Positions 18,225-39,442 of a stretch of DNA of 64,000 nucleotides are shown piece after piece (within the stretch, counting starts at the first letter, position 1; every line of letters begins with the position of its first letter). The DNA comes from a bacterium. GTDB taxonomy: Bacteria > CAIWAD01. The notes beneath the pieces were generated by a model that saw only the letters and a program-made list of their open reading frames with translations, was not told the origin of the DNA and searched no databases. The DNA is taken from the NCBI GenBank assembly GCA_030429345.1, contig JAUIFJ010000001.1:186001-250000 (forward strand). Direction: 5' to 3'. A program made the translations under genes and the position numbers.

Positions 18225-21200
18225 ATGGTACCCGTCCTTCGCAACACAGCCCGGACTCTGCTCGGCGCTCTCGGCGCTTCCATTTTCCTGAGTGCTTCCC
18301 TTGGGGCGCAAGGGATTGACAGCCGAAAGGGTCCTTCCAGCGGCGGCGACAGTCCTTTGACCTACGATGCGGTCTTCAATCCGTCCAGTTTCGATGTCGC
18401 CCTGAGCGCGGGGGACACCCTGACGCTCACCCTGGACATCGAAAACACTCACGACGATGTTCTCGAAGACCTGACCTGGGAACTGGCCCTCGAGTTCGAT
18501 GGCGAAACGGGGCCGGCGCCCCTGCTTCCCGGCAGCAACCTGCAGCAAGCCTATGTCGCTTCCGACGGGCGGGTGCATCCGGTCGGCGAGGCTCCGGCAG
18601 CCTCTTACGAGACGGAAAGCTGGACACTTCCCCTGCGCGATGGCGAGCGCACGGGCAATGTGCTGCTGCTGGCGGACGGGGGCAGCCAGACCGATGTGCA
18701 GGGCGTGCTCGATGAACTCGGCGGCTATAGCGTGACCGTCGTCGCCGACGACGCTCTCTACAACGGCGACAATCCTTCGCTGGATGGCTTCGACCTGGTG
18801 ATCTACCTGGACGGCATTGCCTATGGCTCCGACATGCCCTTGAGCGGCCAGCAGGAAATCGTCGACTTCGTCGGCAACGGGGGCGGCCTCATCGTCACGG
18901 AATGGGTGGGCTATGAAGTCGCTGATGGCCGTCTGCAGACCCTGGCGCCCATTCTGCCGATGGCGAGAACCGGAGGAGGAACGGCGACCCGCACCTACAC
19001 GGTCGACAGCCCAAGCCACCCGGTCACCGCAGGCGTAGCCTCGTCCTTCACTGTGGCTCAGGGCTACAGCATCATGGACCTCAACTTCGGCCAGTCCCTG
19101 GTTTCCATGGTGGACATCGGTCCGGCGGTCGCGGTTTCCGAAGAGCACGGCGGGCGTGTGCTGCAGTTTTCCCACGCGGCGAACTACAGCGGCTACGCGC
19201 CCTTCCTTGAGGGCAATATGCGCCAGCTGCTGGCCAACGGCATTGACTGGGCGTCCAGGGGCGGCGACTGGATGGAGGCTTCTCCCCTTTCCGGCACGGT
19301 GACCGCCGGCACCACGGCGACGATCGAGCTCTTCGTCGACACCTCGAACCTGATCGCCGGGGACTACACGGCGACGCTTCTTGTCAGCAGCAACCTGCTC
19401 GACGATGTGCAGATTCCCTTCCACCTTTCCCTGGACGGCGAACCGGACATTGTCGCCCTGCCGCCCGTGCTGGAATTCCCGGAAACCTTCGTCACACAAA
19501 GCGAAGCCCGGGAACTCGAACTGCGCAACGGGGGAACCGACACGCTGACGGTCAGCTCCATTCTTCCCGAGCTTTCCCACTTCAGCGTGGATGGCGACCA
19601 GTTCACCATCCTGCCTGGCCAGTCCGTCCTGGTGACGGTGTTCTACAGCCCGACGGATGCCGGCGACCACTCCAGCCTGCTGCAGGTCTTCAGCGATGAT
19701 CCGGACCTGCCGGTGCTCAATGTGTCGCTCAATGCCGCGGCGGTGTATACGCCGGTCATGGAGCTCAGCCCCGCCTTCTTCGACTTCGCCGCCGAGACCG
19801 GTTCGTCGGATAATGGCGTCCTGCTGCTGGACAACAGCCTGGGCGGCAGCGAACTGGTCTACCAGGTGCAAGTGCTGCCTCCCGTCGAGGAGACCCGCGC
19901 GCAACCGGCCACGGAGCCTTCCCCGCAGGCCGTATACAATGCCCGCCGCCATGTGGATGTGGCCAAGGGCGCCGAGGACCCCCGCGCCGGGGACGCGCGC
20001 GCGACCCGCGACAGCGGCGGTCCCGACGAGTTCGGCTATGTCTACATCGATTCCGACGAGCCCGGCGGCCCCGAGTTCCTCTGGCAGGACATCTCGGAGC
20101 TGGGCGACCCCATTTTCCTCTACGGTGACGACGAGGACGAGACGATCTTTCTGCCCTTCGAGTTTCCCTTCTACGGGGAACCCTTCGAGGCCATCGAAAT
20201 CAGCACCAACGGCTTCCTGACTTTCGGCGACGATGCCGAAAGCAACAGCCCGGATCCCTTCCCGACCCCCGACGAGCCCAATGGCGTGATCGCCCCCTTC
20301 TGGACCGATCAGATCAGCTACGACAGCGAGATCTTCATCTGGTACGACGAGGACAACGGCACCTTCACCATTCAGTGGGACCAGATCGAGGACTACGACG
20401 AGTCCGGCGATTACACCTACCAGGCCGTGTTGCACGAGAACGGCGACATCTTCTTCTACTATCTGACGCTGAACGGCGAGACCGACGATGTCGGCATCGG
20501 CATCGAGGATCCCAATGGCTTCGACGGCCTGGAGGTCGATTTCTACAACGACTACGCCGAAGAAGGCAAGGCCGTCCGCATCAGCCCCAACAGCCTCTTC
20601 GACTGGCTCTCGTTGGACAGCTATTCCGGCGAGGTTCCCGCCGGACAGAGCCTCGGCCTCAACGTCTTCGCCGACGCGCTGCCCACTCTGCCCGAGGGCG
20701 TATACGAAGCCAACATCCAGGTGGAAAGCAACGCCCTGGACAATGACTTCCAGATGATCCCGGTGAACTTCACCGTGACCGGCGTCCCGATGATCGAGCT
20801 GGGCGATGAAAGCCTCGACTTCGGCGAGGTCTTCGTGGAGCAGGCCGCCAGCCTGTACCTGTGGGTCGAGAACGTCGGCACCAGCGAGCTGACGATCAGT
20901 CCCTCGCTGGGCGGCAGCGACTTCAGCGTCGACACGACGCCATTCGCGCTGGCCCCCTTCAGCGGCCAGCTGCTGGAAGTGCAGTTCAGCACTTCGATCA
21001 CAGGCAGCTACGATGACGTGCTGACCTTGACGCACAATGACCTGCCCGACAATCCTTCTCTCGTGCTGCTGAGCGCGGAGGCGATCGACCCGCCCGCCGG
21101 CGAAGTCAGCCCGCTTTCCTTCGATGTGACACTTTCCGCCGGCGCGCAGCAGACGGAAGACCTCAACATCAACAACCTGCTCGGCGGCAGCGAGCTGGTG

Positions 21201-24200
21201 TATGACAGCGAGATCGTCGACCTGGAGCAGAGCATGGCGCGCGGCCGGCCCATCGGTTTCCATGCCGACAACCAGACCCAGGTTTCCCGTCCGCGGCCCC
21301 AGCTGCCAAGCGGAGCGGAGGATACGGTCGGCCCCCTGGCCGATCTGGGCGACATTGTCAACTATTGGGATGATTTCGTATACGGCACCATGAGCATCGC
21401 CTTCGCAGGCGACGAGTTCTGGGTGATGATCGAAGGATACGGCGGCGGCGAGGAGTTCGGCGGCGGCGGCAGCGGCACCTACGGCATGTTGCTGCGAGTC
21501 TCCGAAGAGGGCGACATCGAGTACGGCTTCGAACTGAACGACTACGATTATCCGCAGAGCATGTGCTACGACGGCGAGAATTTCTGGGTCGTCGACTGGA
21601 GCGGCCTGGTCACCGGCTATGACGAGGGAGGCAACATCATCGGCGATTTCTGGGTGCCGAACTGGGACTACTACGAAACCTGCATGACCTTCGACGGCCA
21701 GCATTTCTGGTTCCTGGACGACAGCGGCAACGATTTCCAGGTCGTCGGCTACGACGGCAGCCTGGTCGCCTCCATCCCCAACCAGGGCGAAAACTACCTC
21801 GACCCGGAAGCCTGCACCTGGGTGCCCGGCCACTTCGGAGGCGAGCTCTGGATCTATGACGGCGACAACGAGCGCATTCTGCAGACAAATCCCGAGGTCG
21901 ACGGGCTGCAGATCCTGCGCGAGCAGGAGACCGGCTACATCGGCTGGATCCGCGCCATGGCGCACAACGGCGACAATCTCTTCCTGGCGAACTACGGCGG
22001 CGAGCTGTGGGAGATCGACGACGACGTGGACGAGATCGACTTCTTCTCGCTCGATCCTTCCGAGGCCTCGGTTCCCGCCGGACAGAGCCATGCGGCCCAG
22101 CTGACCTTTGCCTCGCCGACCAGCTTCGCGGGAACGATGACGGCCACGCTGATGCTGTATACAAACGATCCCCAGCTCGGGGACCTGGCGATTCCGCTGG
22201 TCCTGAATGTCAATGGCCGACCCGTGATCGCCACCGACGAGATGGCCATGGATTTCGGCGAGCGCTACATTGGCAGCACGCTCCTTGAAGGTGTCACAAT
22301 CGCCAACCAGGGCAGCGAGGAGCTGGTGATCAGCAATGTCGTCGCCGGCCTGGCGGATTACACTCCCGACCTGACCATGGCGACTCTCGCCCCCGGCGAG
22401 ACCGTCGACCTGGGGGTCGAGTTCTCGCCGCAGGCCAGCGGGGACCGCAGCACGGTGCTCAGCATCATCAGCAACGATCCCATGCAGCCGATCCTCGACC
22501 TGGTCCTGACGGGCAGCGGCCTGGCGGCTCCGGAGCTGGGGCTGGACCCCGAATCCTTCACGGAATGGCTGGCCTCGGGCAGCGAGGAGGACTACACGCT
22601 GACCTTGTCGAACTCCGGCGATGGCGTTCTGGACTACACGCTGAGCCTGCTCAACGGCAGCCGCTCGCTGGAAAGCGGTACACGCGTCGTCGACCCGGGC
22701 CTCGAGCTGGCCAAGGGCGAGGCGGACCCCCGGCCCGGCTACGCGCCTGGTCGTGATTCCGGCGGGCCGGACGGTTTCGGCTACACCTGGCGCGACAGCA
22801 ACGAACCCGGCGGACCGATCTTCGACTGGGTCGAGATCGCGGACGGCACGGGCACGAACCTCTTCCTGAACGGCGACGACAACTATGCCAACGTGGAGCT
22901 GCCCTTCGCCTTCCCCTTCTATGGAGTGGACAAGACCTTCGTCAAGGTCAGCACCAACGGCTACCTGGGATTCGACTTCGACGGAACGGACTATTCCAAT
23001 GACCCGATTCCGAGCAGTATTGCTCCCAACGACTTCATCGCCCCCTTCTGGGACGACCTCAACGGCAGCAACGGCGACTTCTACACCTGGCATGACACGG
23101 ACAACAATCGTTTCGTGATCACCTGGGACCAGGTGTGGCACCTGAACGGCAGCGGAGACAACACCTTCCAGGCCATCCTCTACCCCTCCGGGCGCATGCT
23201 CTTCCAGTATCTGGACATGAACGGCACGCTGGAAAGCTGCACCATCGGCCTGGAGGACGCGAGCGGAACCGATGGTCTTCCGGTCGTATACAACGCGCCC
23301 TACGTGCAGGACGGCCTGGCCATTTCCCTGGGGAATGCCCCCAACTGGCTCGCCGTGATGCCCGGCGGCGGAAGCATCGAGCCCGGCGAGAGCGAAGAGA
23401 TCACGGTCTCCGTCGACGCCACCTCCCTGCTGGACGGCGCCTATGACGCCCTGATCCAGGTGGGCAGCAACGATCCGCTGAACCCGGCTCCGCTGGTGCC
23501 CTTCCACCTGACGATCGCCGGTTTCCCGGAGATCGAGGTCGGCGTGGCCGAGCTGGATTTCGGAACCGTGTATACGAACACGGACAACCTGCTCACGTTG
23601 CCGGTGCAGAACCTGGGCACCGGGCACCTGACCCTGAGCGCCCTGGATATCGATGATCCGCGCTTCACCACCGAGAGCGCCCCCATCGTGATCGCACCTG
23701 GGACGACCTACCCCCTGGAAGTGGTCTTCCATCCGGACGCCCTGGGAGGCTTCAGCGGCACCCTGGGCATCACCTCGGATGATGACGACGAGGGACTGAT
23801 CCAGGTGGCCCTGCTGGGCGAAAGCCAGGATCCGCCGGTGATGGTGGTGCAGCCGGCGGCCATCGAGGACAGCCTGGTCTCGGGCGAGAGCGCGGAACAC
23901 TGGCTGACGGTCGGCAACGAGACCGGCGGCAGCTTCCTGGAGTACACCATCGAGTTCGATGACAACACCGGTCCCCTGACTCTGCTCTCCAGCCGCAGCG
24001 GCAAGCAGGGCCCGGCCCGCAGCAGCCGCGAGGCCCGCGAGGCCTGGGCCTCCTTCAGCGCCTACCAGGGCGTGGTCGAGGCCGGCGGCGTCGATTCGAT
24101 TCTGGTCACCCTGCAATCGACGCTGGATTACGCGGGAAGCTACAGCGGAACGATCACGGTGCTGTCCAATGACCCCTTCAACCCGGAAGCGGTCCTGCCC

Positions 24201-27200
24201 CTGACCCTGGAAGTCCAGGGCATTCCCGTGCTCGCCGCGAACACGGACACGCTGGACTTCGGCAGCGTGTTCCAGAACTACAGCGACTCGCGGAGCCTGA
24301 CCATCAGCAATACGGGCAGCGCCCTCTTGACCGTCACCACGGCGACCATCGCCGACGCCTCCTTCGAGGTGGCGCCGGACAACTTCAGCCTGCAACCGCA
24401 GCAGTCCGTCGAGCTGGAGATCACCTTCTCGCCGACGGACGCGGCCATCCATGACAGCGAGCTGGTCCTGACCAGCAACAGTCACGAGGCCCCGGTGACA
24501 CAGATCGTCCTGCTCGCCGAATCCGAGCCGGTACCGGTCATGGCCGTTTACCCGGACAGCCTCTCCAGCGACCTGGAATCCGCGGAAAGCGAGACGCAGA
24601 CCCTGACCGTCGACAACACGGCGGGCGGAAGCGACCTGGTCTACAACATCGATGTGATCAGCGACCTGGTGCGCGCCCGCAACGCCGCGAACGCGCGGCC
24701 CCGCCCCTACGATCCCCGCGTGGACGACATGCCGGGCAAGGACGAGCGTGACACGCGTCAGGGCCTGGGCGCCCTGCGCAACTCCGGCGGGCCGGACGCC
24801 TACGGCTATTCCTGGAAGGACAGCGACGAGCCCAACGGCGTCGTCTACGACTGGACGGACATCCGCAGCCAGGGCACGCAGCTGAACCTGGGCGGAGACG
24901 ATTCGCAGACGCAGGTCACGCTGCCCTTCCCCTTCCCCTTCTATGGATCGCAGTACTCGACGGTGCTGGCCAGCACCAACGGATACATCAGCTTCGGCAA
25001 CAACGCGACCTCCTACGGAAACCAGTTCCTGCCCAGCGCGAACCAGCCCAACGCGGTGGTGGCCGCCTTCTGGGACGACCTGCATTTCCGCAGTTCCGGC
25101 CGGGCGCACACGCTGTATGACGTGGCCCAGGAGCGCTTCATCCTGCAGTACTCGGATGTGCAGCGCTATTCCGGCACAGGCAGCTACACCTTCCAGATCA
25201 TCCTCTACCGCAGCGGACGCATTGTCACACAGTACGCCTCGATGAGCGGCGTGCTGACCAGCGCCACGGTCGGCATCGAGAATGCCGACGGCACGGTGGG
25301 CCTGACGGCGGCCTTCAACCAGACCTACGTGCAGAACGGCCTGGCCGTGCAGTTCGCCTCCTCGCCGGACTGGATCACGGTGCTGCCCTCCGGCGGTGTC
25401 GTTCCCATGGGCGAGACCCGCGAGGTCGAGGTCACCTTCGACGCGGTGGGCCTGCTCGACTTCGATGACACGGCGGCCCTGCAGGTCAGCGGCAACGATC
25501 CGCTGAACCCGGTGGAGACGATCCCGGTCTCCCTGCATGTCACGGGCAACTACGACCTGCTGCCCGGCGTCGTCAGCAATCCCTTCCCCGCGAACGGCGA
25601 GCTGGAAGTGGTGACCAGCCCTGTGCTCAGCTGGCTTCCCGCCGATGGGGCGGAGTACTACAATGTCTACCTCTGGCACGAGGATTCCCCCGTGCCCGAT
25701 TTCCCCACGGTCACGGTGAGTGACATCTCCTGGCAGGCCAACGGGCTGCTCTTCGGCGAAACCTACAACTGGAAGGTCGACGCGGGCAATCTCTACGGCC
25801 AGTCGGAGGGTCCGATCTGGAACTTCACGATCCGCACCCAGCCGGACCTGGAGGTTGTAGACATTCAGGTTCCGAACCAGGTCTTCACGGAGCAGGAATA
25901 CGAGGTCAGCTGGACCATCACCAACAACGGGCCCGGCGCGACGACCGTGCCGGCCTGGAATGACCGCCTGTACTACTCCGAGTTCCAGGAGTTCGCCTGG
26001 GCCACGGTGAACTACCTGGGCCAGTTCAGCAACGCCTCCTACCTGGGTGCCGGCGACAGCTACTTGAACACGGGAACCTTCACCGTTCCCCAGGGCCTGA
26101 CGGGCGACTTCTACGTCCACGTGATCACCGACTACAACAACCACGTGAGCGAAGGCGACGAGTCCAACAACATGGGCGTCAGCACGACGAGCATGGAGTT
26201 CGTCTTGACTCCGCCCCCCGACCTGATCGTCAGCGATGTCGACGCTCCGGGCAGCGGCTTCAGCGGCCAGGACTTCCTGGTCAGCTGGACGGTCGAGAAC
26301 CAGGGCAGCGGCGATGTGGCCGGCGGAAGCTGGTGGGATGCCGTCTACGTGGCTCCGGATTCGGTCACGGACGCCGGCCAGGCCACCTACATCGGCCGCG
26401 TGCAGCACAGCGCGCCCTTCGTCTCCGGCGGCAGCTACGACGCCTCCGGCAGCTTCACGGTGCCGCTGAACCTTTTCGGCGACCTGCACTTCATCGTGGT
26501 CACCGACTACCTGAACAACGTCTTCGAACACGCCTGGGAAAGCAACAACAGCAACTTCAGCGGCACGTCCAACGTGACCCTGCAGCCGCCTGCCGACCTG
26601 GAGATCACAGCCTTCACCTCGCCGGACACGGCCTCGATCCGCGAAAGCCTGCCGCTTTCCTGGACCATCGAGAACGCCGGCTTCGCGCCGACCGAGACCG
26701 GCTCCTGGTATGACCGGATCTACCTCTCGAGTGACACGGTCCTCGACGAGGACGACACCCACCTGGGCGGCAACTACTGGCACAGCGGCGTGCTTCAGCC
26801 CGGCGAGGAGTATACACGGAATACTACGGTCAACCTGCCGGACAACCTGGAAGGCCCCTGGTTCCTCCTGCTTTCCACGGATCACGGCAACCATGTCTTC
26901 GAGCACATCTTCGAGGCCAACAATCGCCAGTCCAACATGCTGGAAGTGCTGCGTCCCGACCTGGATCCGCTGGAACTGCTGATCAGCGGCCCGGCCATGT
27001 CCGGCGAGCCCCTGCTGCTGGAATGGACCGTGTTCAACAACGGGCCGGGCGCCGTGATCGGCGGCGCGGAATGGTGGACCGACGCCATCTACCTGACGGA
27101 CAGCGAGGTGCTCGACCTGGACGGCCAGTCCCCGATCGGCATCTTCAACAGCAATCCGATGCTTCCGGCTGGAGGCAGCTACAGCAACAGCCAGAGCGTC

Positions 27201-30200
27201 CTGCTTCCCGAGGGAGCACAGGGCACCTGGTACCTGCACTTGCTGACGGACGCCACGGATCACGTGGCCGAAACCGACGAGGACAACAACTCGGAACTGA
27301 ATGTCAGCACCGTCGAGATCCTGCTCAGCGCGTGGGCCAACCTGCAGCCGAACACGATCAGCATTCTCAACATGGAAAGCCTGGCCGCCGGCGGCCCGAT
27401 CGAGATTCTCTACGACGCCGACAACACGGGCGCCGGGGAAATCGATTCCACCGAGACCTGGACCGACCGCTTCTACCTGTCGCTCTACCCGGATTTCGAG
27501 GTGGGGCCGAACTACCAGGTGGGCAGCATCAACAACAGCGGTATGCTGGAGTCCGGAGGCGGCTACACGCACTACGAGACCTTCAGCATTCCGAACCTGG
27601 CCGCGGACCAGTACTACCTGCACCTGGTGTGCGACGCCAACTCGGCGATCTACGAACACACGCAGGAAGACGACAACCTGCTGACTTCCATTCCCCTGAC
27701 CATCCAGGGCGTGCAGCCGCACGACATGGTCGTCAGCGAGTTCGATGCTCCGGCCACTGGCGGTTCCGGGCAGCCGATCAGCGTCAGCTGGACCTCCACC
27801 AACCAGGGCGCGGGCAACAGCCCGTACTACATGTCGGAAACCATCGTGATTTCCGAAGACGACGTGCTCTCGCTGGCCGAGGATACGGTGATCCACGAGC
27901 TCACCCACTACGGCCTGGTGGCGCCCGGGGTCAGCTATTCCTACGAACGCGCGCCGACCCTGCCCAACGGTCTTTCCGGTGACTACTGGCTCTTTGCGGT
28001 CAGCAACCGCTACAACAATGGCCCGGAAAGCGACTTCTCCAACAACACGGCCCAGCGGCTGATCACGATCAGTCTCACGCCGCCGCCCGACCTGGCGATC
28101 TCCGCGTTCAACGCCAGCGCCGGGGCGACTTCCGGCCAGCCGCTGCAGGTCTCCTGGACGACCCTCAACCAGGGTGCCGGAGCGACGCAGGGCCTGTTCT
28201 ACGAGAACATCTACCTGAGCAGCAACAGCTCCTGGGACAACGGGGATCTGCTGCTGGCCGGCACCAACAGCGGCGGAACGCTGGAGGTCGACAGCACTCT
28301 GATGCGCGAGGTCAGCGTCAACATTCCCGTCTACCTGGCGGGCAACTACTACCTGATCCTGCGCACGGACAGCAACAACCGCCAATACGAGAGCGACGAG
28401 AACAACAACACCTTCTCGCAGCTGCTGACGATCACGCAACCGGATCCCTCCGACCTGGTCGTGGACGCGATTGCCGCGCCTGATTCCGTGATCACCGGCG
28501 AGCCCCTCTCGCTGAGCTGGACCCTGGTCAACCAGGGCATCAACCCGGCCCAGGGCTACATGTGTGACGCCGTCTACTTCTCGACGGACGCGGTCTGGGA
28601 CATCAACGATGCCCAGGTCGGCCTCGATTGCCGCGTGATCGACATCAGCCCCGGCGGCCGTGTCGAGTTCAGTGCCGAGGTCGATGTGAGCCAGAGCATC
28701 CGCACCAACGAGCAGGGCGAGACCAGCGACCAGCTGCCGGGCCTGACGCCGGGCGACTACTATGTCATCGTCCGCACGGACCTGCTGAACAACATCAACG
28801 AGAGCGACGTGGACAACAATACGGGCGTCAGCCTGGGCACGGTCCACGTGGACATGCCGACCCTGGCGCTTGGGTTCGCGGAGCCGCTCATCCTCAACGA
28901 CGGCGACTTCTACCACTACCGCGTGAATGTGCCGCTCGGCGAAACCCTGCGCATCACGGTCAGCGGAGAGGAAGGCAGCCTCTATTCCGAGCTGTATACC
29001 TCCGGCGGCCAGGTGCCCAGCCGCAGCAGCTATGATGAAGTCGGTGCCGAACCCTACCGCCTGAACCAGGTGGCCCTGGTGCCGGAAACCACTTCCGAGG
29101 ACTACTTCGTCATGGTCTACGGCACGGGTTCCGGCAGCGAGGAGATCGAGATCCTGGCCGAGCTGGTCGAGTTCAGCATTACCTCCGTGGAGCCGGACTA
29201 CGGCGGCCGCGGCGGACAGGTGACCATGCTCATCGAGGGCGCGCGCTTCAACGAGGACAGCAGCGTGGCGCTGACCGACGGCATGGGCCATGACGCGGAG
29301 CTGATCCAGCAGGAAGTGCTAGACGCCTCGCACATTCGCGCCACCTTCGAGCTGCCGGCGGACATGCCGCTGGGCGCCTACGACCTGGTCGTCAGCAATC
29401 CCGAGCGCGTCGACACGATTCTGCCTGCCGGCTTCACGGTGCAGGAGCCCACCGGCGCCAGCGTCTCCTTCGGGTATACGCGGCCGGGCAGCATGCGCCG
29501 CAACGGTTCGGGCCTCTACCAGTTCAGCGTGGTCAACACGGCGAACAACGACATTCCCTTCCTGAGCGCCATGCTGGCGATTCCCGAGGGCACGTCGTAT
29601 ACACTGGACAGCGACCGCCTGCACTCGAACAGCTTCTTCATGCCGGACAGCCTGGCCGACCTGATGGAGATCAGCGACCACTTCGACGAGCAGGGCTGGA
29701 GGATCATTCCGCTGGTGGCGACCAATGTCGCCGTAGGCGAGGTACTCGACCTGCACCTGCGCGTCTCCGGCGTGCAGGGGGATTCCTTCCCGCTGAAGTT
29801 CTTCGTCGACGGGTATACGCGCGACGAGTTCGTCCAGGGCCAGCTGGCCTATGCCGAGCTGCTGCGCCAGGCGGTGCTGGAGGACGAGTCGGACCTCTTC
29901 CCGCCCGAGTTCTACGACCTGGCCGAGTTCCCGGACGACTTCAGCGCCATGATCCTGGATGTATACGTCGACCTGGGCCTGCTGGACCAGAGCGATGTGG
30001 ACGGCGTCACCTCCGCCATGGTCAGCGCGGCCATCCAGACCGTGCTCGAGCTGCCGGCGGAAGTCCAGAACCTGCTCAACCGCGACCTGACCACCTGCGA
30101 GACCGTGCTCAACTGGCTGGAACTGCTGGGCCGCCTGGGAATCATCGCGGTCGGCATCATCACCGGCGCCCTGCTGGCTCCGGTGACACTCGGCGCGAGC

Positions 30201-33200
30201 GCCGTGCTCGCCGTGTTGAGCGGCCTGGGCCTGGGCATGAACATCGGCGCCATTCTGACCAACAACCCGGGCCTGCTGGCCAAGATCTTCTGTGATGACA
30301 CGCCGGTCGTCGCCTCGCGGGACCCGAACGACATCCTGGGGCCCGTCGGCTACGGAGACGAGAACTTTGTCGCACGCAGCCAGAAGATGGACTTCATGAT
30401 CCGCTTCGAGAACGATCCCGAACTGGCCACCGCGCCGGCGCAGGTCGTCACCATCGAGCAGGTCTTCGACGAGGACGCGGACCTGAGCAGTTTCCGCCTG
30501 GGCGATTTCGGCTTCGGGCCCTTCAACTTCGATGTGCCCAGCAACCGCTCCTTCTTCCAGAGTCGCCTCGACGTGACCGATTCGCTGGGCATCTACGTGG
30601 ACTTCACGGCCGGCCTGGACGTGGTCGAGAATCGCGCCTTCTGGATTCTGAGTTCCATTGACCCGGCAACCGGCGAGGCCCCGGCGGATCCCTTCGCGGG
30701 CTTCCTGGCGGTCAACGACTCGACCGGCGCGGGCGAAGGCTTCGTGACCTATTCCATCTATCCCGAAGACGACGCCCTGACCGGGGACGTGATCGAGAGC
30801 GAGGCGCGGATCGTCTTCGACGACAACGAGCCCATCGACACGCCGCTGATCTTCCATACCATCGACGCCTTCGGCGGCACGAGCATGGTGACCAGCGCGC
30901 CGGCGGTCAGCGACTCCGTGGCCTTCAGCATTGCCTGGGAAGGCGAGGACGACGAGGGCGGATCCGGCGTGGCGAGCTGGGATGTCTACCGCAGTATCAA
31001 CGACAACAACAACTTCGAGCTCTACCAGGTGGAGCTGCGTGATACCTCGACGGTCTTCGTCGGCTCCTTCGGCAACACCTACCACTTCTTCTCGATCGCG
31101 AGAGACAACGTGGGCAACACGGAACCGCTGAAGACGACTGCCGAAGCCTCGGTCCAGGTGATCAGCGGGAACCTGCCGCTGGCGCTGGAGCTGCCGGACA
31201 GCCTGTACTTCAACGAGGACGGTATGCTGAGCGAGGACTTCTCGGCCTACGCCGGCGGCGGCTTCGAAGAGAACTACGCGCTGAGCGTGGACGCGCCTGC
31301 CGAACTGATCGTCAATATCAGCGGCCTGATGGTCGACTTCAGCGCGCAGCCCGACTGGAATGGCGACGCGGAAGTCACCTTCACCCTGAGTGACGACGAC
31401 AGCCGCGAGACCGTTATGGCCTCGACCATCGTCAGCGTGATCCCCGTGAACGACGCGCCGATGATCGCCAGCAGCCTGGACAGCCTCTGGATTCCGGAGG
31501 ACGGCAGCGACTGCAGCATCGACCTGGACGATGTCTTCACGGATGTAGACGGCGACCCGCTGAGCTACACCTTCGACGGCAACACCATGCTCGATGTCGA
31601 GATCACGGACGGAGTGGTCTGCATCACGCCTGTCGCCGACTGGAGCGGCAGCGAGACCCTGGTCTTCACCGCGGACGACGGGCAGGCGCGCACCAGCCTG
31701 AGCGCCTTCGACGGCCGTGACAGCGCGCGCCGCGTCCTGAACGTGGCCAGCCGCGCCAAGGGCCGCCTGGAAGCGGATCACGGCAAGCGCAGCCGGAACG
31801 GCGCGCTGCGGGATACGGCGGACGAGGACCTGGTCGTCATCGTGGTGCCGGAGAACGACGCGCCGCTGATCGACATTCCGGAGGATTTCTCCTTTGACGA
31901 GGACGGCGAGCTGGTGGTGGATTTCAGTTCCTTCATCGAGGACATCGACAGTGCCACGCTCACGCTGAGCGCCAGCGGCCAGAACAACGTGACCGTCTCG
32001 ATTGTGGATCACGAAGTGACCTTCGGCGCCGCTCCGGACTGGAACGGCAGTGAGCAGGTGGTCTTCAGCGTGGACGACGGTGTGCGCACCGTGTCCAGCG
32101 ACACGACCCTGGTCACCGTCAACGCGGTCAACGACGCGCCGATGGTCAGCGGCCTGCCGGACACGCTCTTCATTGCCGAGGACAGCGGCTTGTCCAGCGT
32201 GAACCTGTCGCAGTACTTCTCGGATGTAGACGGCGATGACCTGAGTTACATGGTGGAAGGCGCCAGCATCCTGCAGACGGAGATCGACGGCGACATGCTG
32301 GAGATCACGCCGCTGGCCGACCTCTTCGGGACGGACGACCTGGTGATCACGGCGGACGACGGCGCGACGCTGGCTTCGGTCACGATCCTGCGCCAGGACG
32401 GCGGCAAGGCTTCCCGGCGCGCCGCGCTCGAACTGGCCGGCGATGGCCGCGCACAGAAGCGTGACCGCGCCCTGAAAGGCAATCCGCTGGTCGCGCGCAG
32501 CGGCGAACGCGAACACACTCCGCTGCTGGACACCGCCGCAGGAACGCTGGTGGTTGTCGTCGCCCCGGTCAACGATCCGCCGGAACTGGATCTGCCGGTC
32601 AGCTTCTCCTTCAACGAGGACGAAAGCCTGACCGTGGACTTCTTGTCCTACATCACGGACATGGATTCCGGAAGCGTCACGCTCTACGGCAACAGCGGCA
32701 GCAATGTGACCGTGGACATCATCGGCACGATGGTGACCTTCAGCGCCGCGCCGGACTGGAATGGCAGCGAAGAGCTGAGTTTCACGGTCGAGGACGACTA
32801 CGGCCAGACCGCAATGGGCATGACGAATGTCATCGTGCTGCCGGTAAACGACGCACCCGCGGTCGTCGCCGGCCTGGACACGCTGATGATCCTGAGCGGC
32901 GGCTTCGACAATACCATCGACCTGTCGACGATCTTCGAAGACGTGGACGGCGATCCGCTGAGCTACAGCGTCAGCGGCCAGACCATGCTGGACGTGGACA
33001 TCAGCCCGGAAGGCCTGGTGATGATCGAGGCGCCGAACGGCTTCGTCGGCGAAGAGCTGCTGCTCTTCACCGCGGATGACGGCCAGATGCTGGCCAGCAT
33101 CGGCAAGGGCGGAATGTCCCTGCGCCACGCCGTGGCCGGCAAGGGACGCGAAGCGGCCGACGATCGTGACACGGCGAGCGAGGACCTGCTGGTCATCGTC

Positions 33201-33500
33201 TACGAGGACGGCACGACGAATGCCGACGAGCGTCCGTTGGCCTTCGAGCTGAAGCAGAACTTCCCCAACCCCTTCAACCCGGGGACGACAATCCGCTTCA
33301 CGCTGCCCGAGACCGGTTCCGTCAGCCTGGCCGTATACGACCTGCAGGGGCGCAAGGTGGCCCAGCTGCTGGACGGCCTGCTGGACCGCGGCGAACACGA
33401 ACTGTACTACCAGGCGACGCACCTGCCGAGCGGTGTCTACATCTACCGCCTGGAAAGCGAACGCAACCGGGCCCACCGCAAGATGGTCCTGGTCAAGTGA
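18225..33500 (+). CDS. giant (5,091-residue) modular T9SS-exported surface protein
   Basis: ATG with AGGGGTGA upstream; signal peptide residues 1-29. Modules in order (approximate residues): a GATase/flavodoxin-like segment 143-340; many ASPM/SPD-2/Hydin-type (choice-of-anchor D) beta-sandwiches to about 2445; within them three copies of an F-P-F-Y-G plus S-T-N-G module near 600-790, 1506-1706 and 2183-2380; a propeller-like stretch 1046-1280; an Fn3-like domain 2446-2540; eight CARDB repeats 2540-3545; PPC- and TIG-like domains to about 3740; a hydrophobic pair 3964-4020; a D-P-N-D-I domain to about 4220; Fn3; tandem cadherin-like N-D-A-P domains 4316-4995; sorting domain 5003-5091 ending MVLVK. 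Likely a cell-surface adhesin or sheath protein. Acidic overall, with basic inserts between modules. A terminator follows. Domain names are by pattern, not search. Confidence 0.9.
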   Translation: MVPVLRNTARTLLGALGASIFLSASLGAQGIDSRKGPSSGGDSPLTYDAVFNPSSFDVALSAGDTLTLTLDIENTHDDVLEDLTWELALEFDGETGPAPLLPGSNLQQAYVASDGRVHPVGEAPAASYETESWTLPLRDGERTGNVLLLADGGSQTDVQGVLDELGGYSVTVVADDALYNGDNPSLDGFDLVIYLDGIAYGSDMPLSGQQEIVDFVGNGGGLIVTEWVGYEVADGRLQTLAPILPMARTGGGTATRTYTVDSPSHPVTAGVASSFTVAQGYSIMDLNFGQSLVSMVDIGPAVAVSEEHGGRVLQFSHAANYSGYAPFLEGNMRQLLANGIDWASRGGDWMEASPLSGTVTAGTTATIELFVDTSNLIAGDYTATLLVSSNLLDDVQIPFHLSLDGEPDIVALPPVLEFPETFVTQSEARELELRNGGTDTLTVSSILPELSHFSVDGDQFTILPGQSVLVTVFYSPTDAGDHSSLLQVFSDDPDLPVLNVSLNAAAVYTPVMELSPAFFDFAAETGSSDNGVLLLDNSLGGSELVYQVQVLPPVEETRAQPATEPSPQAVYNARRHVDVAKGAEDPRAGDARATRDSGGPDEFGYVYIDSDEPGGPEFLWQDISELGDPIFLYGDDEDETIFLPFEFPFYGEPFEAIEISTNGFLTFGDDAESNSPDPFPTPDEPNGVIAPFWTDQISYDSEIFIWYDEDNGTFTIQWDQIEDYDESGDYTYQAVLHENGDIFFYYLTLNGETDDVGIGIEDPNGFDGLEVDFYNDYAEEGKAVRISPNSLFDWLSLDSYSGEVPAGQSLGLNVFADALPTLPEGVYEANIQVESNALDNDFQMIPVNFTVTGVPMIELGDESLDFGEVFVEQAASLYLWVENVGTSELTISPSLGGSDFSVDTTPFALAPFSGQLLEVQFSTSITGSYDDVLTLTHNDLPDNPSLVLLSAEAIDPPAGEVSPLSFDVTLSAGAQQTEDLNINNLLGGSELVYDSEIVDLEQSMARGRPIGFHADNQTQVSRPRPQLPSGAEDTVGPLADLGDIVNYWDDFVYGTMSIAFAGDEFWVMIEGYGGGEEFGGGGSGTYGMLLRVSEEGDIEYGFELNDYDYPQSMCYDGENFWVVDWSGLVTGYDEGGNIIGDFWVPNWDYYETCMTFDGQHFWFLDDSGNDFQVVGYDGSLVASIPNQGENYLDPEACTWVPGHFGGELWIYDGDNERILQTNPEVDGLQILREQETGYIGWIRAMAHNGDNLFLANYGGELWEIDDDVDEIDFFSLDPSEASVPAGQSHAAQLTFASPTSFAGTMTATLMLYTNDPQLGDLAIPLVLNVNGRPVIATDEMAMDFGERYIGSTLLEGVTIANQGSEELVISNVVAGLADYTPDLTMATLAPGETVDLGVEFSPQASGDRSTVLSIISNDPMQPILDLVLTGSGLAAPELGLDPESFTEWLASGSEEDYTLTLSNSGDGVLDYTLSLLNGSRSLESGTRVVDPGLELAKGEADPRPGYAPGRDSGGPDGFGYTWRDSNEPGGPIFDWVEIADGTGTNLFLNGDDNYANVELPFAFPFYGVDKTFVKVSTNGYLGFDFDGTDYSNDPIPSSIAPNDFIAPFWDDLNGSNGDFYTWHDTDNNRFVITWDQVWHLNGSGDNTFQAILYPSGRMLFQYLDMNGTLESCTIGLEDASGTDGLPVVYNAPYVQDGLAISLGNAPNWLAVMPGGGSIEPGESEEITVSVDATSLLDGAYDALIQVGSNDPLNPAPLVPFHLTIAGFPEIEVGVAELDFGTVYTNTDNLLTLPVQNLGTGHLTLSALDIDDPRFTTESAPIVIAPGTTYPLEVVFHPDALGGFSGTLGITSDDDDEGLIQVALLGESQDPPVMVVQPAAIEDSLVSGESAEHWLTVGNETGGSFLEYTIEFDDNTGPLTLLSSRSGKQGPARSSREAREAWASFSAYQGVVEAGGVDSILVTLQSTLDYAGSYSGTITVLSNDPFNPEAVLPLTLEVQGIPVLAANTDTLDFGSVFQNYSDSRSLTISNTGSALLTVTTATIADASFEVAPDNFSLQPQQSVELEITFSPTDAAIHDSELVLTSNSHEAPVTQIVLLAESEPVPVMAVYPDSLSSDLESAESETQTLTVDNTAGGSDLVYNIDVISDLVRARNAANARPRPYDPRVDDMPGKDERDTRQGLGALRNSGGPDAYGYSWKDSDEPNGVVYDWTDIRSQGTQLNLGGDDSQTQVTLPFPFPFYGSQYSTVLASTNGYISFGNNATSYGNQFLPSANQPNAVVAAFWDDLHFRSSGRAHTLYDVAQERFILQYSDVQRYSGTGSYTFQIILYRSGRIVTQYASMSGVLTSATVGIENADGTVGLTAAFNQTYVQNGLAVQFASSPDWITVLPSGGVVPMGETREVEVTFDAVGLLDFDDTAALQVSGNDPLNPVETIPVSLHVTGNYDLLPGVVSNPFPANGELEVVTSPVLSWLPADGAEYYNVYLWHEDSPVPDFPTVTVSDISWQANGLLFGETYNWKVDAGNLYGQSEGPIWNFTIRTQPDLEVVDIQVPNQVFTEQEYEVSWTITNNGPGATTVPAWNDRLYYSEFQEFAWATVNYLGQFSNASYLGAGDSYLNTGTFTVPQGLTGDFYVHVITDYNNHVSEGDESNNMGVSTTSMEFVLTPPPDLIVSDVDAPGSGFSGQDFLVSWTVENQGSGDVAGGSWWDAVYVAPDSVTDAGQATYIGRVQHSAPFVSGGSYDASGSFTVPLNLFGDLHFIVVTDYLNNVFEHAWESNNSNFSGTSNVTLQPPADLEITAFTSPDTASIRESLPLSWTIENAGFAPTETGSWYDRIYLSSDTVLDEDDTHLGGNYWHSGVLQPGEEYTRNTTVNLPDNLEGPWFLLLSTDHGNHVFEHIFEANNRQSNMLEVLRPDLDPLELLISGPAMSGEPLLLEWTVFNNGPGAVIGGAEWWTDAIYLTDSEVLDLDGQSPIGIFNSNPMLPAGGSYSNSQSVLLPEGAQGTWYLHLLTDATDHVAETDEDNNSELNVSTVEILLSAWANLQPNTISILNMESLAAGGPIEILYDADNTGAGEIDSTETWTDRFYLSLYPDFEVGPNYQVGSINNSGMLESGGGYTHYETFSIPNLAADQYYLHLVCDANSAIYEHTQEDDNLLTSIPLTIQGVQPHDMVVSEFDAPATGGSGQPISVSWTSTNQGAGNSPYYMSETIVISEDDVLSLAEDTVIHELTHYGLVAPGVSYSYERAPTLPNGLSGDYWLFAVSNRYNNGPESDFSNNTAQRLITISLTPPPDLAISAFNASAGATSGQPLQVSWTTLNQGAGATQGLFYENIYLSSNSSWDNGDLLLAGTNSGGTLEVDSTLMREVSVNIPVYLAGNYYLILRTDSNNRQYESDENNNTFSQLLTITQPDPSDLVVDAIAAPDSVITGEPLSLSWTLVNQGINPAQGYMCDAVYFSTDAVWDINDAQVGLDCRVIDISPGGRVEFSAEVDVSQSIRTNEQGETSDQLPGLTPGDYYVIVRTDLLNNINESDVDNNTGVSLGTVHVDMPTLALGFAEPLILNDGDFYHYRVNVPLGETLRITVSGEEGSLYSELYTSGGQVPSRSSYDEVGAEPYRLNQVALVPETTSEDYFVMVYGTGSGSEEIEILAELVEFSITSVEPDYGGRGGQVTMLIEGARFNEDSSVALTDGMGHDAELIQQEVLDASHIRATFELPADMPLGAYDLVVSNPERVDTILPAGFTVQEPTGASVSFGYTRPGSMRRNGSGLYQFSVVNTANNDIPFLSAMLAIPEGTSYTLDSDRLHSNSFFMPDSLADLMEISDHFDEQGWRIIPLVATNVAVGEVLDLHLRVSGVQGDSFPLKFFVDGYTRDEFVQGQLAYAELLRQAVLEDESDLFPPEFYDLAEFPDDFSAMILDVYVDLGLLDQSDVDGVTSAMVSAAIQTVLELPAEVQNLLNRDLTTCETVLNWLELLGRLGIIAVGIITGALLAPVTLGASAVLAVLSGLGLGMNIGAILTNNPGLLAKIFCDDTPVVASRDPNDILGPVGYGDENFVARSQKMDFMIRFENDPELATAPAQVVTIEQVFDEDADLSSFRLGDFGFGPFNFDVPSNRSFFQSRLDVTDSLGIYVDFTAGLDVVENRAFWILSSIDPATGEAPADPFAGFLAVNDSTGAGEGFVTYSIYPEDDALTGDVIESEARIVFDDNEPIDTPLIFHTIDAFGGTSMVTSAPAVSDSVAFSIAWEGEDDEGGSGVASWDVYRSINDNNNFELYQVELRDTSTVFVGSFGNTYHFFSIARDNVGNTEPLKTTAEASVQVISGNLPLALELPDSLYFNEDGMLSEDFSAYAGGGFEENYALSVDAPAELIVNISGLMVDFSAQPDWNGDAEVTFTLSDDDSRETVMASTIVSVIPVNDAPMIASSLDSLWIPEDGSDCSIDLDDVFTDVDGDPLSYTFDGNTMLDVEITDGVVCITPVADWSGSETLVFTADDGQARTSLSAFDGRDSARRVLNVASRAKGRLEADHGKRSRNGALRDTADEDLVVIVVPENDAPLIDIPEDFSFDEDGELVVDFSSFIEDIDSATLTLSASGQNNVTVSIVDHEVTFGAAPDWNGSEQVVFSVDDGVRTVSSDTTLVTVNAVNDAPMVSGLPDTLFIAEDSGLSSVNLSQYFSDVDGDDLSYMVEGASILQTEIDGDMLEITPLADLFGTDDLVITADDGATLASVTILRQDGGKASRRAALELAGDGRAQKRDRALKGNPLVARSGEREHTPLLDTAAGTLVVVVAPVNDPPELDLPVSFSFNEDESLTVDFLSYITDMDSGSVTLYGNSGSNVTVDIIGTMVTFSAAPDWNGSEELSFTVEDDYGQTAMGMTNVIVLPVNDAPAVVAGLDTLMILSGGFDNTIDLSTIFEDVDGDPLSYSVSGQTMLDVDISPEGLVMIEAPNGFVGEELLLFTADDGQMLASIGKGGMSLRHAVAGKGREAADDRDTASEDLLVIVYEDGTTNADERPLAFELKQNFPNPFNPGTTIRFTLPETGSVSLAVYDLQGRKVAQLLDGLLDRGEHELYYQATHLPSGVYIYRLESERNRAHRKMVLVK

Positions 33501-37069: not shown

Positions 37070-37097
37070 TTGCGGGATGGCCCCGCGCCCATATAAT
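37070..37097 (+). promoter_or_regulatory. sigma-70 promoter for the aldehyde dehydrogenase unit
   Basis: TTGCGG at 37070 and a perfect TATAAT at 37092, with a 16-bp spacer. Predicted start near 37104, giving a leader of about 36 nt to ATG 37140. Confidence 0.6.
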
Positions 37098-37139
37098 CCT
37101 ACATTTCCTGTTTCCATTGAAGCAAGGCAGAGGCGCCCC

Positions 37140-38669
37140 ATGGACAAGGATCTGGCCTCCGTACAGGAAGTGCGGGACATGCTGCGCAAGGCGCGCGAAG
37201 CAGCCGACCAGTTCAAGAATTTCTCGCAGGATCAGGTGGACCGCATCGTCCAGGCCATGGCCGAACGCAGCCTGGCGGCGGCCAAGCGGCTGGCGGAAAT
37301 GGCCTGCGAGGAGACCGGCTACGGCCGGGTCGAGGACAAGACCACCAAGAATGTCTTCGCCAGCCGGCATCTGCTGGAGCATGTGCGCGGCATCAAGACC
37401 TGCGGCATCGTTCATCACAACGAGCAGACCAAGGTCGTCGAGATCGCCGTTCCCATGGGCATCGTCGCCGCCCTGGTGCCCTGCACCAATCCCACCTCCA
37501 CAACGATCTACAAATCGATCATTGCCCTGAAGGCCCGCAACGCGATCGTCTTCAGCCCTCATCCCAAAGCGCTGAACAGCATTCTGGAAAGCGTGCGCAT
37601 TCTGAACGAGGCCGCCGCCAGCGTCGGCGCTCCGCGCAACCTGATCCAGTGCATGACCACCCCGACCCTGGAAGGCACCCAGGAGCTGATGAAGCACGAG
37701 CTGACCAGCGTGATTCTCGCCACCGGCGGATCACCGATGGTCAAGGCCGCTTACAGCGCCGGCAAACCGGCCTACGGCGTCGGCCCGGGCAATGTGCCGG
37801 CCTATGTGGATCGCAGCGCGGATGTCGCAAAGGCCGCCCGCGACATCGTCGCCGGCAAGTCCTTCGACTGGGGCACGGTCTGCGCCTCCGAGCAGAGCGT
37901 CGTCGCTGATCGGCCCATTTCGGGCAAGCTGCTCGAGGAGCTGCGCAAGGCGGGAGCCTACATCTGCACCGCCGAGGAGAAGCGCGCGTTGCAGTCGACC
38001 ATGATCGACAGCCGCGGCGGACTCAATCCGGCCATCGTCGGCCAGTCGCCGGAGACCATTGCCGACTTGGCGGGCCTGAAGGTGCCGCGCGGCACGCGCT
38101 GCCTGCTGGTGATGCTGGACAAGGTCGGCCGCGAAGACCCGCTGAGCCGCGAAAAGCTGAGCCCCGTGCTGGGCTTCTATGTCGAGGATGGCTGGAAGAA
38201 GGGCTGCGAACGGGCCATCGAGGTCCTGCAGTACGGCGGCGTAGGCCACACCTTCGCCATTCATTGCCGCGACCAGGACATCATCCTGGAATTCGGCCTG
38301 CACAAGCCGGCCTTCCGCATTGTGGTGAATAGTCCGGCGACTCACGGCGCCATCGGCTACACCACCGGTCTGCCTCCCGCCATGACTCTCGGTCCGGGCA
38401 CCTGGGGCGGCAGCATCACCACGGACAACGTAGGGCCGCTGCATCTGGTCAACATCAAGCGCATGGCCTTCGAGATCAATCCTCTGGATCCCGCGGACAA
38501 CCCGGAACCCTCCAGCCGCTGGGGCTACGACGAGAACTATCGCTACCGTCCCAAGGGGGAGGAAGCGCAGGCAGCCGGATCCTCGCCCGCTCCCCGCAGC
38601 TACGGCAAGTCGCGCTTGAGTGACGCCGACATCGAGAGCATCATCAAGGACTTCAAGAAGAACCCATGA
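37140..38669 (+). CDS. CoA-acylating aldehyde dehydrogenase (EutE/PduP-like)
   Basis: 509 residues from ATG 37140, downstream of a sigma-70 promoter. NAD-dependent, CoA-acylating aldehyde dehydrogenases convert an aldehyde to acyl-CoA. Visible features: the PMGIVAALVPCTNPTST entry segment, ATGGSPMVKAAYSAGKPAYG with the YGVGPGNVPAYVD cofactor region, and the catalytic Cys248 in SFDWGTVCASEQ. The N-terminal 30 residues (VRDMLRKAREAADQFKNFSQ) form an amphipathic helix like those of microcompartment-targeted EutE/PduP, but no shell gene lies in the window. The last 4 bp overlap a PduL-fold gene (ATGA), suggesting an aldehyde to acyl-CoA to acyl-phosphate pair. Confidence 0.88.
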   Translation: MDKDLASVQEVRDMLRKAREAADQFKNFSQDQVDRIVQAMAERSLAAAKRLAEMACEETGYGRVEDKTTKNVFASRHLLEHVRGIKTCGIVHHNEQTKVVEIAVPMGIVAALVPCTNPTSTTIYKSIIALKARNAIVFSPHPKALNSILESVRILNEAAASVGAPRNLIQCMTTPTLEGTQELMKHELTSVILATGGSPMVKAAYSAGKPAYGVGPGNVPAYVDRSADVAKAARDIVAGKSFDWGTVCASEQSVVADRPISGKLLEELRKAGAYICTAEEKRALQSTMIDSRGGLNPAIVGQSPETIADLAGLKVPRGTRCLLVMLDKVGREDPLSREKLSPVLGFYVEDGWKKGCERAIEVLQYGGVGHTFAIHCRDQDIILEFGLHKPAFRIVVNSPATHGAIGYTTGLPPAMTLGPGTWGGSITTDNVGPLHLVNIKRMAFEINPLDPADNPEPSSRWGYDENYRYRPKGEEAQAAGSSPAPRSYGKSRLSDADIESIIKDFKKNP

Positions 38670-39442
38670 GCCTGGATCCGCGGATACGGATCCTCCCGCC
38701 CCGGGTCTTCCTGGATCGAGCCGGCTTTCAGCGCCTTTTCGGCGAAGACGGCTACCTGGAATTCGGCGAGGCGGTGGGAACGCAAGGCGGCTTCCTCAGC
38801 CGTCAGCGCCTCTCCGTCTCCACGGCCCTCGGGCGGATCGACGATCTGCCGATCCACGGACCCCTTGCCTCCCACTGCGGTGCCGAATTGCCGGCCAGCC
38901 TTTGCGCGCGGCTTGGCTGCGAGGCTCCGGTGCGCCAGAGCGGCGACTACGAAGGCTGCCCCTCGCTGACCCTGATCGGACCGGCGGGCCACCTGCATCT
39001 GGAAGAGGGCCTGCTGGTTCCCATGCGCCGTCTTTGCCTGACACCGGAAAACGCGCGCCGCCTCGGCCTGCTGCAGGGAGACGCCGTGCTCTGCCTTGCC
39101 CGCAGCCACCGCCGCACCGATTGGCGCGAAGCCACCCGTGACACCATCTTCTCGGATGTCGAAGTCAGCGTGGGAACGGACTACGACCTGGAACTGCATC
39201 TGGACCGGGACGACGCCGCAGCAGCAGGTCTGCGCTGCGGGGACCGCGCCAGCCTGCTCAACCTGTCGCGCCTGCACCAGGATCGCCCTGAACTCTGGCT
39301 GCCCGTCGGCCGGCTGGTTGGGGAAGCGGATGTGCAGAGGGCCCGCGAAAAGGGGCTGCGCATTCGTGTCACGAAGGGAATGATCCTGACGCCCGCGGCC
39401 CGCGAAAAAGGCCGGGAATTCGGAGTGTTGGACTTCGACTAG
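38666..39442 (+). CDS. PduL-fold phosphotransacylase-like protein lacking canonical metal-ligand histidines
   Basis: 258 residues. ATGA overlap with the aldehyde dehydrogenase. The frame follows PduL (phosphate propanoyltransferase) from residue 8 to about 190: FQRLFG, then PVRQSGDYEGCPSLTLIGP, GLLVPMRRLCLTPENA, and YDLELHLDRDDAAAAGL. In PduL the two R-H-x-H motifs bind zinc. Here the first reads P-R13-V-F15-L and the second R121-R122-L-C124-L, so four histidines are gone, while His179 of the third site remains. Residues 190-258 add an extension ending VTKGMILTPAAREKGREF, similar to tails seen on microcompartment-associated enzymes. Either catalysis is lost, giving a regulatory or structural paralog, or the metal site is rebuilt (Cys124). 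Confidence 0.7.
   Translation: MSLDPRIRILPPRVFLDRAGFQRLFGEDGYLEFGEAVGTQGGFLSRQRLSVSTALGRIDDLPIHGPLASHCGAELPASLCARLGCEAPVRQSGDYEGCPSLTLIGPAGHLHLEEGLLVPMRRLCLTPENARRLGLLQGDAVLCLARSHRRTDWREATRDTIFSDVEVSVGTDYDLELHLDRDDAAAAGLRCGDRASLLNLSRLHQDRPELWLPVGRLVGEADVQRAREKGLRIRVTKGMILTPAAREKGREFGVLDFD

Follow-up and report, generated by a model that had tools for sequence, protein, structure and literature searches.

A PduL-fold protein without canonical zinc ligands, paired with a CoA-acylating aldehyde dehydrogenase in Delongbacteria

A PduL-like gene and its dehydrogenase neighbor

The window analyzed here, a stretch of 64,000 nt from a member of the poorly known phylum Delongbacteria, carries a gene for a CoA-acylating aldehyde dehydrogenase followed immediately by a gene for a 258-aa protein that matched the PduL profile (PF06130, PTAC; E 9e-29, 100.9 bits, cut-off 25). 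A preliminary description of this DNA had reported a PduL homolog beside an acylating aldehyde dehydrogenase and a 4-bp overlap of the two genes, and both points were confirmed: the neighbor is of the TIGR02518 type, and the genes share an ATGA. The features discussed below are as follows.

37077..38669, + strand: CoA-acylating acetaldehyde dehydrogenase, EutE/AdhE-N type (TIGR02518); likely start at the ATG at 37140
38610..38666, + strand: putative encapsulation peptide at the C-terminus of the dehydrogenase, SRLSDADIESIIKDFKKNP, preceded by a Pro/Ala/Ser linker (by inspection, following the description of encapsulation peptides in PMC8217296)
38666..38669, + strand: ATGA stop-start overlap of the dehydrogenase and PduL-like genes
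38666..39442, + strand: PduL-fold (PTAC, PF06130) protein without canonical zinc ligands, 258 aa (ORF, profile match, alignments, AF2 model)
38702..38710, + strand: residues 13-15 (R-V-F), aligned to the Zn1 ligands H48-x-H50 (gap-free alignment to 5CUO and multiple alignment)
38885..38887, + strand: E74, equivalent of Zn1 ligand E109; present in 4/4 family members, V in G001
39029..39037, + strand: residues 122-124 (R-L-C), aligned to the Zn2 ligands H157-x-H159 (alignments)
39101..39133, + strand: Arg-rich insertion RSHRRTDWREA, residues 146-156 (multiple alignment)
39197..39199, + strand: H178, equivalent of Zn2 ligand H204; present in 3/4 family members, L in G002
39302..39439, + strand: C-terminal module, residues 213-258; also on some canonical PduLs, and weakly similar to the C-terminal part of TIGR02536

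We compared this locus with those of four other Delongbacteria genomes: three (G002, G003, and G004) belong to the same family as the window's genome (G000), and the fourth (G001, locus L019) is a Candidatus Delongbacteria MAG of the same class that is more distant. The dehydrogenase scored 613 bits against the model for acetylating acetaldehyde dehydrogenase (TIGR02518, cut-off 620) and has the catalytic Cys in the motif TVCASEQ. By inspection, its C-terminus ends in a conserved SDEEIDRIVKEF-type putative encapsulation peptide behind a linker in all five genomes. The 4-bp overlap was also found in G001; in the remaining three genomes the two genes adjoin without overlap.

The downstream protein resembles PduL (PF06130; 5CUO) in fold, in two-domain architecture, and in having the gene for a CoA-acylating aldehyde dehydrogenase next to its own. 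Its residues 12-150 aligned without gaps to the PduL of Rhodopseudomonas palustris (5CUO), and its score against the NCBIfam model for phosphate propanoyltransferase was 102.9 bits, below the cut-off of 209. Unlike 5CUO, it carries the Arg-rich insertion and the C-terminal module, and we found no N-terminal encapsulation peptide on it. The insertion is present in all five Delongbacteria proteins but not in most canonical PduLs; two canonical PduLs (L233 and L234) have an insertion of similar length and other sequence.

An AF2 model of the window protein had a mean pLDDT of 92 and a pTM of 0.75. When the model was searched against the PDB, 5CUO was the sole good match (E 8e-20, TM 0.95 by target length), the next match having an E of 3e-3; the different fold that the preliminary description had named as its possible refutation was thus rejected. 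Because the 30-row input alignment included canonical PduLs, which help AF2, the model indicates compatibility with the PduL fold rather than independent proof of it. On this model, the PduL fold appears intact.

Active-site residues of the PduL-like protein

The Zn1 site of 5CUO is formed by H48, H50, E109, and the sulfur of CoA and its Zn2 site by H157, H159, and H204, and R103 contacts the phosphate; all of the PduL metal ligands are said to be absolutely conserved (PMC4784909). In the window protein, the Zn1 set reads R13, F15, and E74 and the Zn2 set reads R122, C124, and H178, such that neither site is complete: four of the five zinc-ligand histidines are lost, and the equivalents of E109 and H204 are the only ligands left. 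The two R-H-x-H motifs read P-R-V-F-L and R-R-L-C-L, exactly as first described, in both gap-free pairwise and multiple alignments. The two types of alignment also agreed that no histidines are restored at shifted positions, the other refutation that had been named.

The losses extend beyond the metal ligands. The phosphate-contacting arginine is gone (the R103 column holds A in the window protein and Q, A, or G in the other three family genomes), as are Q107 and the conserved CoA contacts R97, which is replaced by P, and N211. The Ser127 equivalent (S92), R90, and D94 are retained. Judged by these active-site residues, the window protein is not a working PduL and annotation as a phosphotransacylase is unsuitable; loss of the known PduL mechanism is well supported by the alignments.

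A rival reading is that the cleft has acquired a different function. The preliminary description had listed a new metal site or acyl-transfer chemistry among its options. A PduL fold might handle CoA thioesters either free of zinc or with its metal at another place, for example by hydrolyzing acyl-CoA, transferring the acyl group to a different acceptor, or sensing acyl-CoA. Retention of the fold and of S92, R90, and D94 would fit such a role, as would an Arg-rich insertion that is specific to the group. Moreover, a few possible ligand-type residues such as H109 and C143 have become invariant among the family members that were checked, which counts against reading the protein as a pseudoenzyme. 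However, the invariant residues of these proteins include no evident group of new metal ligands, and loss of R97 and N211, likewise of R103 and Q107, speaks against work on CoA thioesters. R13, F15, and R122 are identical in all four family genomes and the H159 column reads C, E, A, and A; judged from the alignment, these replacements are not a metal-binding set, leaving the proposed metal site or acyl-transfer chemistry unsupported. We regard new chemistry as improbable. A particular form of it is a similarly long shot: the fold would have been reused within a deoxyribose metabolosome for a metal-independent CoA-thioester task, and its new working parts would be the Arg/Phe/Arg cleft and the Arg-rich insertion.

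Spread of the ligand loss and maintenance of the gene

Zinc-ligand loss was found in all four genomes of the family. Since these are four independent assemblies, an assembly or sequencing error can be rejected. The state of the sites varies within the phylum: G002 has lost H204 besides the other ligands, and G001 has H/R at the first motif and has lost E109 and R103, so that Zn1 is gone, but retains H157, H159, and H204. With a full Zn2 site, the G001 protein might retain some activity. Each of the five Delongbacteria genomes has only one PF06130 gene, and a search for a canonical pduL elsewhere, suggested in the preliminary description, accordingly found none: the window's gene is the sole PF06130 gene of its genome.

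In the homologs read outside Delongbacteria, the ligands are nearly always complete. When 84,980 species genomes were scanned, the best 80 matches, a list ordered by similarity to the query and thus not a random sample, included 77 homologs from outside the phylum, and E109 and the five histidines are present in all 77. From a broader sample, of 386 genomes, 61 homologs outside the phylum were readable, and the six ligands are complete in 59 of them; in the phylum of G324, whose PduL is the most similar outside Delongbacteria, they are intact in 30/30 proteins read. The two exceptions among the 61, which answer the suggested search for homologs with the same changes, are G258, in which Zn1 alone is lost, and G113, in which nearly everything is lost. 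Both genes lie in clusters with BMC-H and dehydrogenase genes (G258, L231:3704-4382; G113, L230:8157-8960), and the G113 cluster also has a BMC-P gene.

G258 and G113 are apparently separate lineages of ligand loss. Mapped on a tree of 49 proteins, ligand loss requires at least two changes by parsimony; G258 groups with the canonical L025 (93/98), and the placement of G113, on a very long branch, is unsure. The count of independent losses is provisional, as long branches are poorly placed in the PduL tree. The unrelated G258 and G001 share the same half-lost state, with Zn1 gone and Zn2 kept, and these states suggest that Zn1 is lost before Zn2, an order that we counted in favor of the pseudoenzyme reading.

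Could the window protein nevertheless still be a phosphotransacylase that works through its remaining E74 and H178? Both residues are present, and G001 keeps the whole of Zn2. On the other hand, G002 lacks H204, and the metal ligands are reported as absolutely conserved (PMC4784909) and are complete in 77/77 homologs of the best-80 list and in 59/61 of the others, making continued phosphotransacylase activity extremely improbable.

An ordinary Pta, the other gene whose presence elsewhere had been raised, is encoded in all five Delongbacteria genomes. In G003, it adjoins a gene that we read by eye as coaD. We considered and rejected an encapsulated Pta as a substitute for PduL: the Pta starts at its domain, without an extra N-terminal peptide. 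No acetate kinase (PF00871) turned up in G000 (98% complete) or in G001 (67% complete), but genus g2 has one. Given a Pta in every genome and no acetate kinase found in these two, acetyl-phosphate may be an unneeded product in the window's organism.

The PduL-like ORF is unbroken and lies beside the dehydrogenase gene in five of five genomes from two families. Comparisons within g2 gave dN/dS values of about 0.17-0.31 (PduL-like gene) and 0.15-0.21 (dehydrogenase gene), rough figures because dS is near saturation. The dN ratio of PduL to dehydrogenase was about 2.2-2.3 in g2, compared with about 1.5-1.6 in the canonical pairs of Gemmatimonadota (L025, L069, and L092). These rough estimates point to a gene under relaxed but present constraint, that is, purifying selection, rather than one that is decaying.

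The same figures bear on the idea that the gene is a drifting relic, whose function was lost when Pta took over and which survives only via translational coupling to the dehydrogenase gene. Its evolution about 2.2 times faster than that of the dehydrogenase, above the canonical pairs, and the loss of even H204 in G002 speak for such drift. The unbroken ORF in all five genomes, a dN/dS well under 1, and the identity of R13, F15, and R122 across the four family members speak against it, and because the genes do not overlap in three genomes, coupling cannot hold the reading frame. We therefore consider a relic unlikely.

Scattered shell genes and a possible role for the PduL-like protein

The preliminary description had seen no shell gene, which is correct for the window and for its contig but not for the genome: G000 encodes two BMC-H proteins, one tandem BMC-T, and four BMC-P proteins on five other contigs. 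C35 holds the BMC-H pair; C87 holds the tandem BMC-T, which has a PduT-type CPGK cysteine, behind a PduS-like gene of the RnfC family; C88 holds two BMC-P genes beside DeoB; C11 holds BMC-P, then an ACT-domain gene, then DUF711; and C28 holds BMC-P, then DeoC. A scattered shell set was found in all five Delongbacteria genomes, with four BMC domains and four BMC-P in each of the four family genomes and four and two, respectively, in G001 (67% complete). The order BMC-P then DeoC recurs in G000, G002, G003, and G004 (L155:7270-8468, L157:559-1732). DeoC scored 276 bits against TIGR00126 and DeoB scored 418 bits against TIGR01696; by inspection, the DeoC N-terminus carries a DIVDRIVKEVLEQ-type putative encapsulation peptide in the four genomes where it was read.

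Two further proteins of these contigs have extensions. The second BMC-H (L011:8467-8955, C35) has a C-terminal extension of ~80 residues that by eye resembles a SAP/Rho-N helix-extension-helix and had no Pfam match; similar BMC-H tails occur in G113 (L230) and in the Gemmatimonadota-type loci L231 and L232. The ACT-domain protein (L154:8952-9404, C11) has an N-terminal extension resembling an encapsulation peptide (LSEQRIREITRKVIDEL).

In the Gemmatimonadota locus L025, the genes BMC-H, BMC-H, AldDH, PduL, BMC-P, ACT, and DUF711 form one run, so the Delongbacteria set can aptly be seen as a locus of this kind whose genes have been dispersed; the trio of BMC-P, ACT, and DUF711 is common to both. 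The compact AldDH-PduL clusters of Gemmatimonadota (L025, L069, and L092) share the dehydrogenase-PduL order and the BMC-H pair with Delongbacteria, but their PduL is canonical and their genes lie in one cluster. These observations also bear on the unencapsulated aldehyde module that had been proposed from the absence of shell genes on the window's contig. A shell set elsewhere in every Delongbacteria genome looked at, the predicted encapsulation peptides that the dehydrogenase and DeoC bear wherever found, and the clustering of the same genes with shell genes in Gemmatimonadota all argue against such a module, which we regard as highly unlikely.

Among known compartments, the gene set is closest to two types. 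The association of a DeoC-type aldolase (PF01791) with shell genes marks the sugar-phosphate utilizing (SPU) metabolosomes (PMC4207490, PMC8217296), and Delongbacteria share with them a DeoC with a predicted encapsulation peptide, a EutE-type dehydrogenase, BMC-P, and PduS/PduT-like electron-transfer parts. They differ in that the genes are dispersed over six places, the PduL is degenerate, and DeoB, not RpiB, was seen beside shell genes in neighborhoods read by eye (no RpiB, PF02502, was noticed in these). FRAG metabolosomes have scattered shell genes and no obvious signature enzyme (PMC8217296). The likeness to FRAG, matched by description rather than by BMC-P clade, lies in shell genes scattered over up to six places, occurrence in candidate phyla, and few adjacent enzymes; here, however, DeoC adjoins BMC-P and is a candidate signature enzyme. 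By gene content, the set looks like a fragmented deoxyribose-phosphate metabolosome of a FRAG/SPU-like kind. A DeoC with a predicted encapsulation peptide would give a FRAG-like metabolosome a candidate signature enzyme and make its substrate directly testable.

We propose that the window protein is a pseudo-phosphotransacylase that still folds and serves the dehydrogenase as a non-catalytic partner in a fragmented metabolosome for deoxyribose-phosphate, a reading to which we assign a probability of roughly 60%. That the protein lacks an N-terminal encapsulation peptide of its own weighs against its placement in the shell. Of the three options raised at the outset, a non-catalytic partner is the best supported, the role being deduced from ligand loss in a gene that has been kept. 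The ancestor would have been an active PduL working beside the same dehydrogenase, from which both zinc sites and the residues contacting phosphate and CoA were lost later. DeoB would make deoxyribose-5-phosphate, DeoB and DeoC together would deliver acetaldehyde, and the putatively encapsulated dehydrogenase would convert this to acetyl-CoA and NADH, with the PduS-like flavo-Fe/S protein and the PduT-like shell protein passing electrons out. On the usual view, a metabolosome holds a CoA pool of its own, which PduL or EutD recycles. In Delongbacteria, there would be no step from acetyl-CoA to acetyl-phosphate within the shell; instead, acetyl-CoA may exit, or CoA may exchange with that of the cytosol, in which the ordinary Pta could work. 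The PduL-like protein would be kept for assembly or for the dehydrogenase, probably in a structural job.

Retention of a core metabolosome enzyme in a putatively inactive form has a parallel in the GRM1A/B loci (PMC8217296), where it concerns the dehydrogenase. In those loci, however, the inactive protein is a second copy beside another dehydrogenase, whereas the genome with the degenerate PduL has no other PF06130 gene. We found nothing relevant on Delongbacteria microcompartments or on PduL pseudoenzymes in the open-licence papers searched. That the sole PduL of a phylum is without its zinc ligands, together with two apparently separate lineages of loss, suggests that at least one type of metabolosome can skip CoA recycling, and that a PduL-like protein is worth keeping even without that step.

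Elsewhere in the window, positions 18225-33500 hold an ORF of 5091 aa, at the end of which we noted by eye a type IX-like C-terminal sorting signal.
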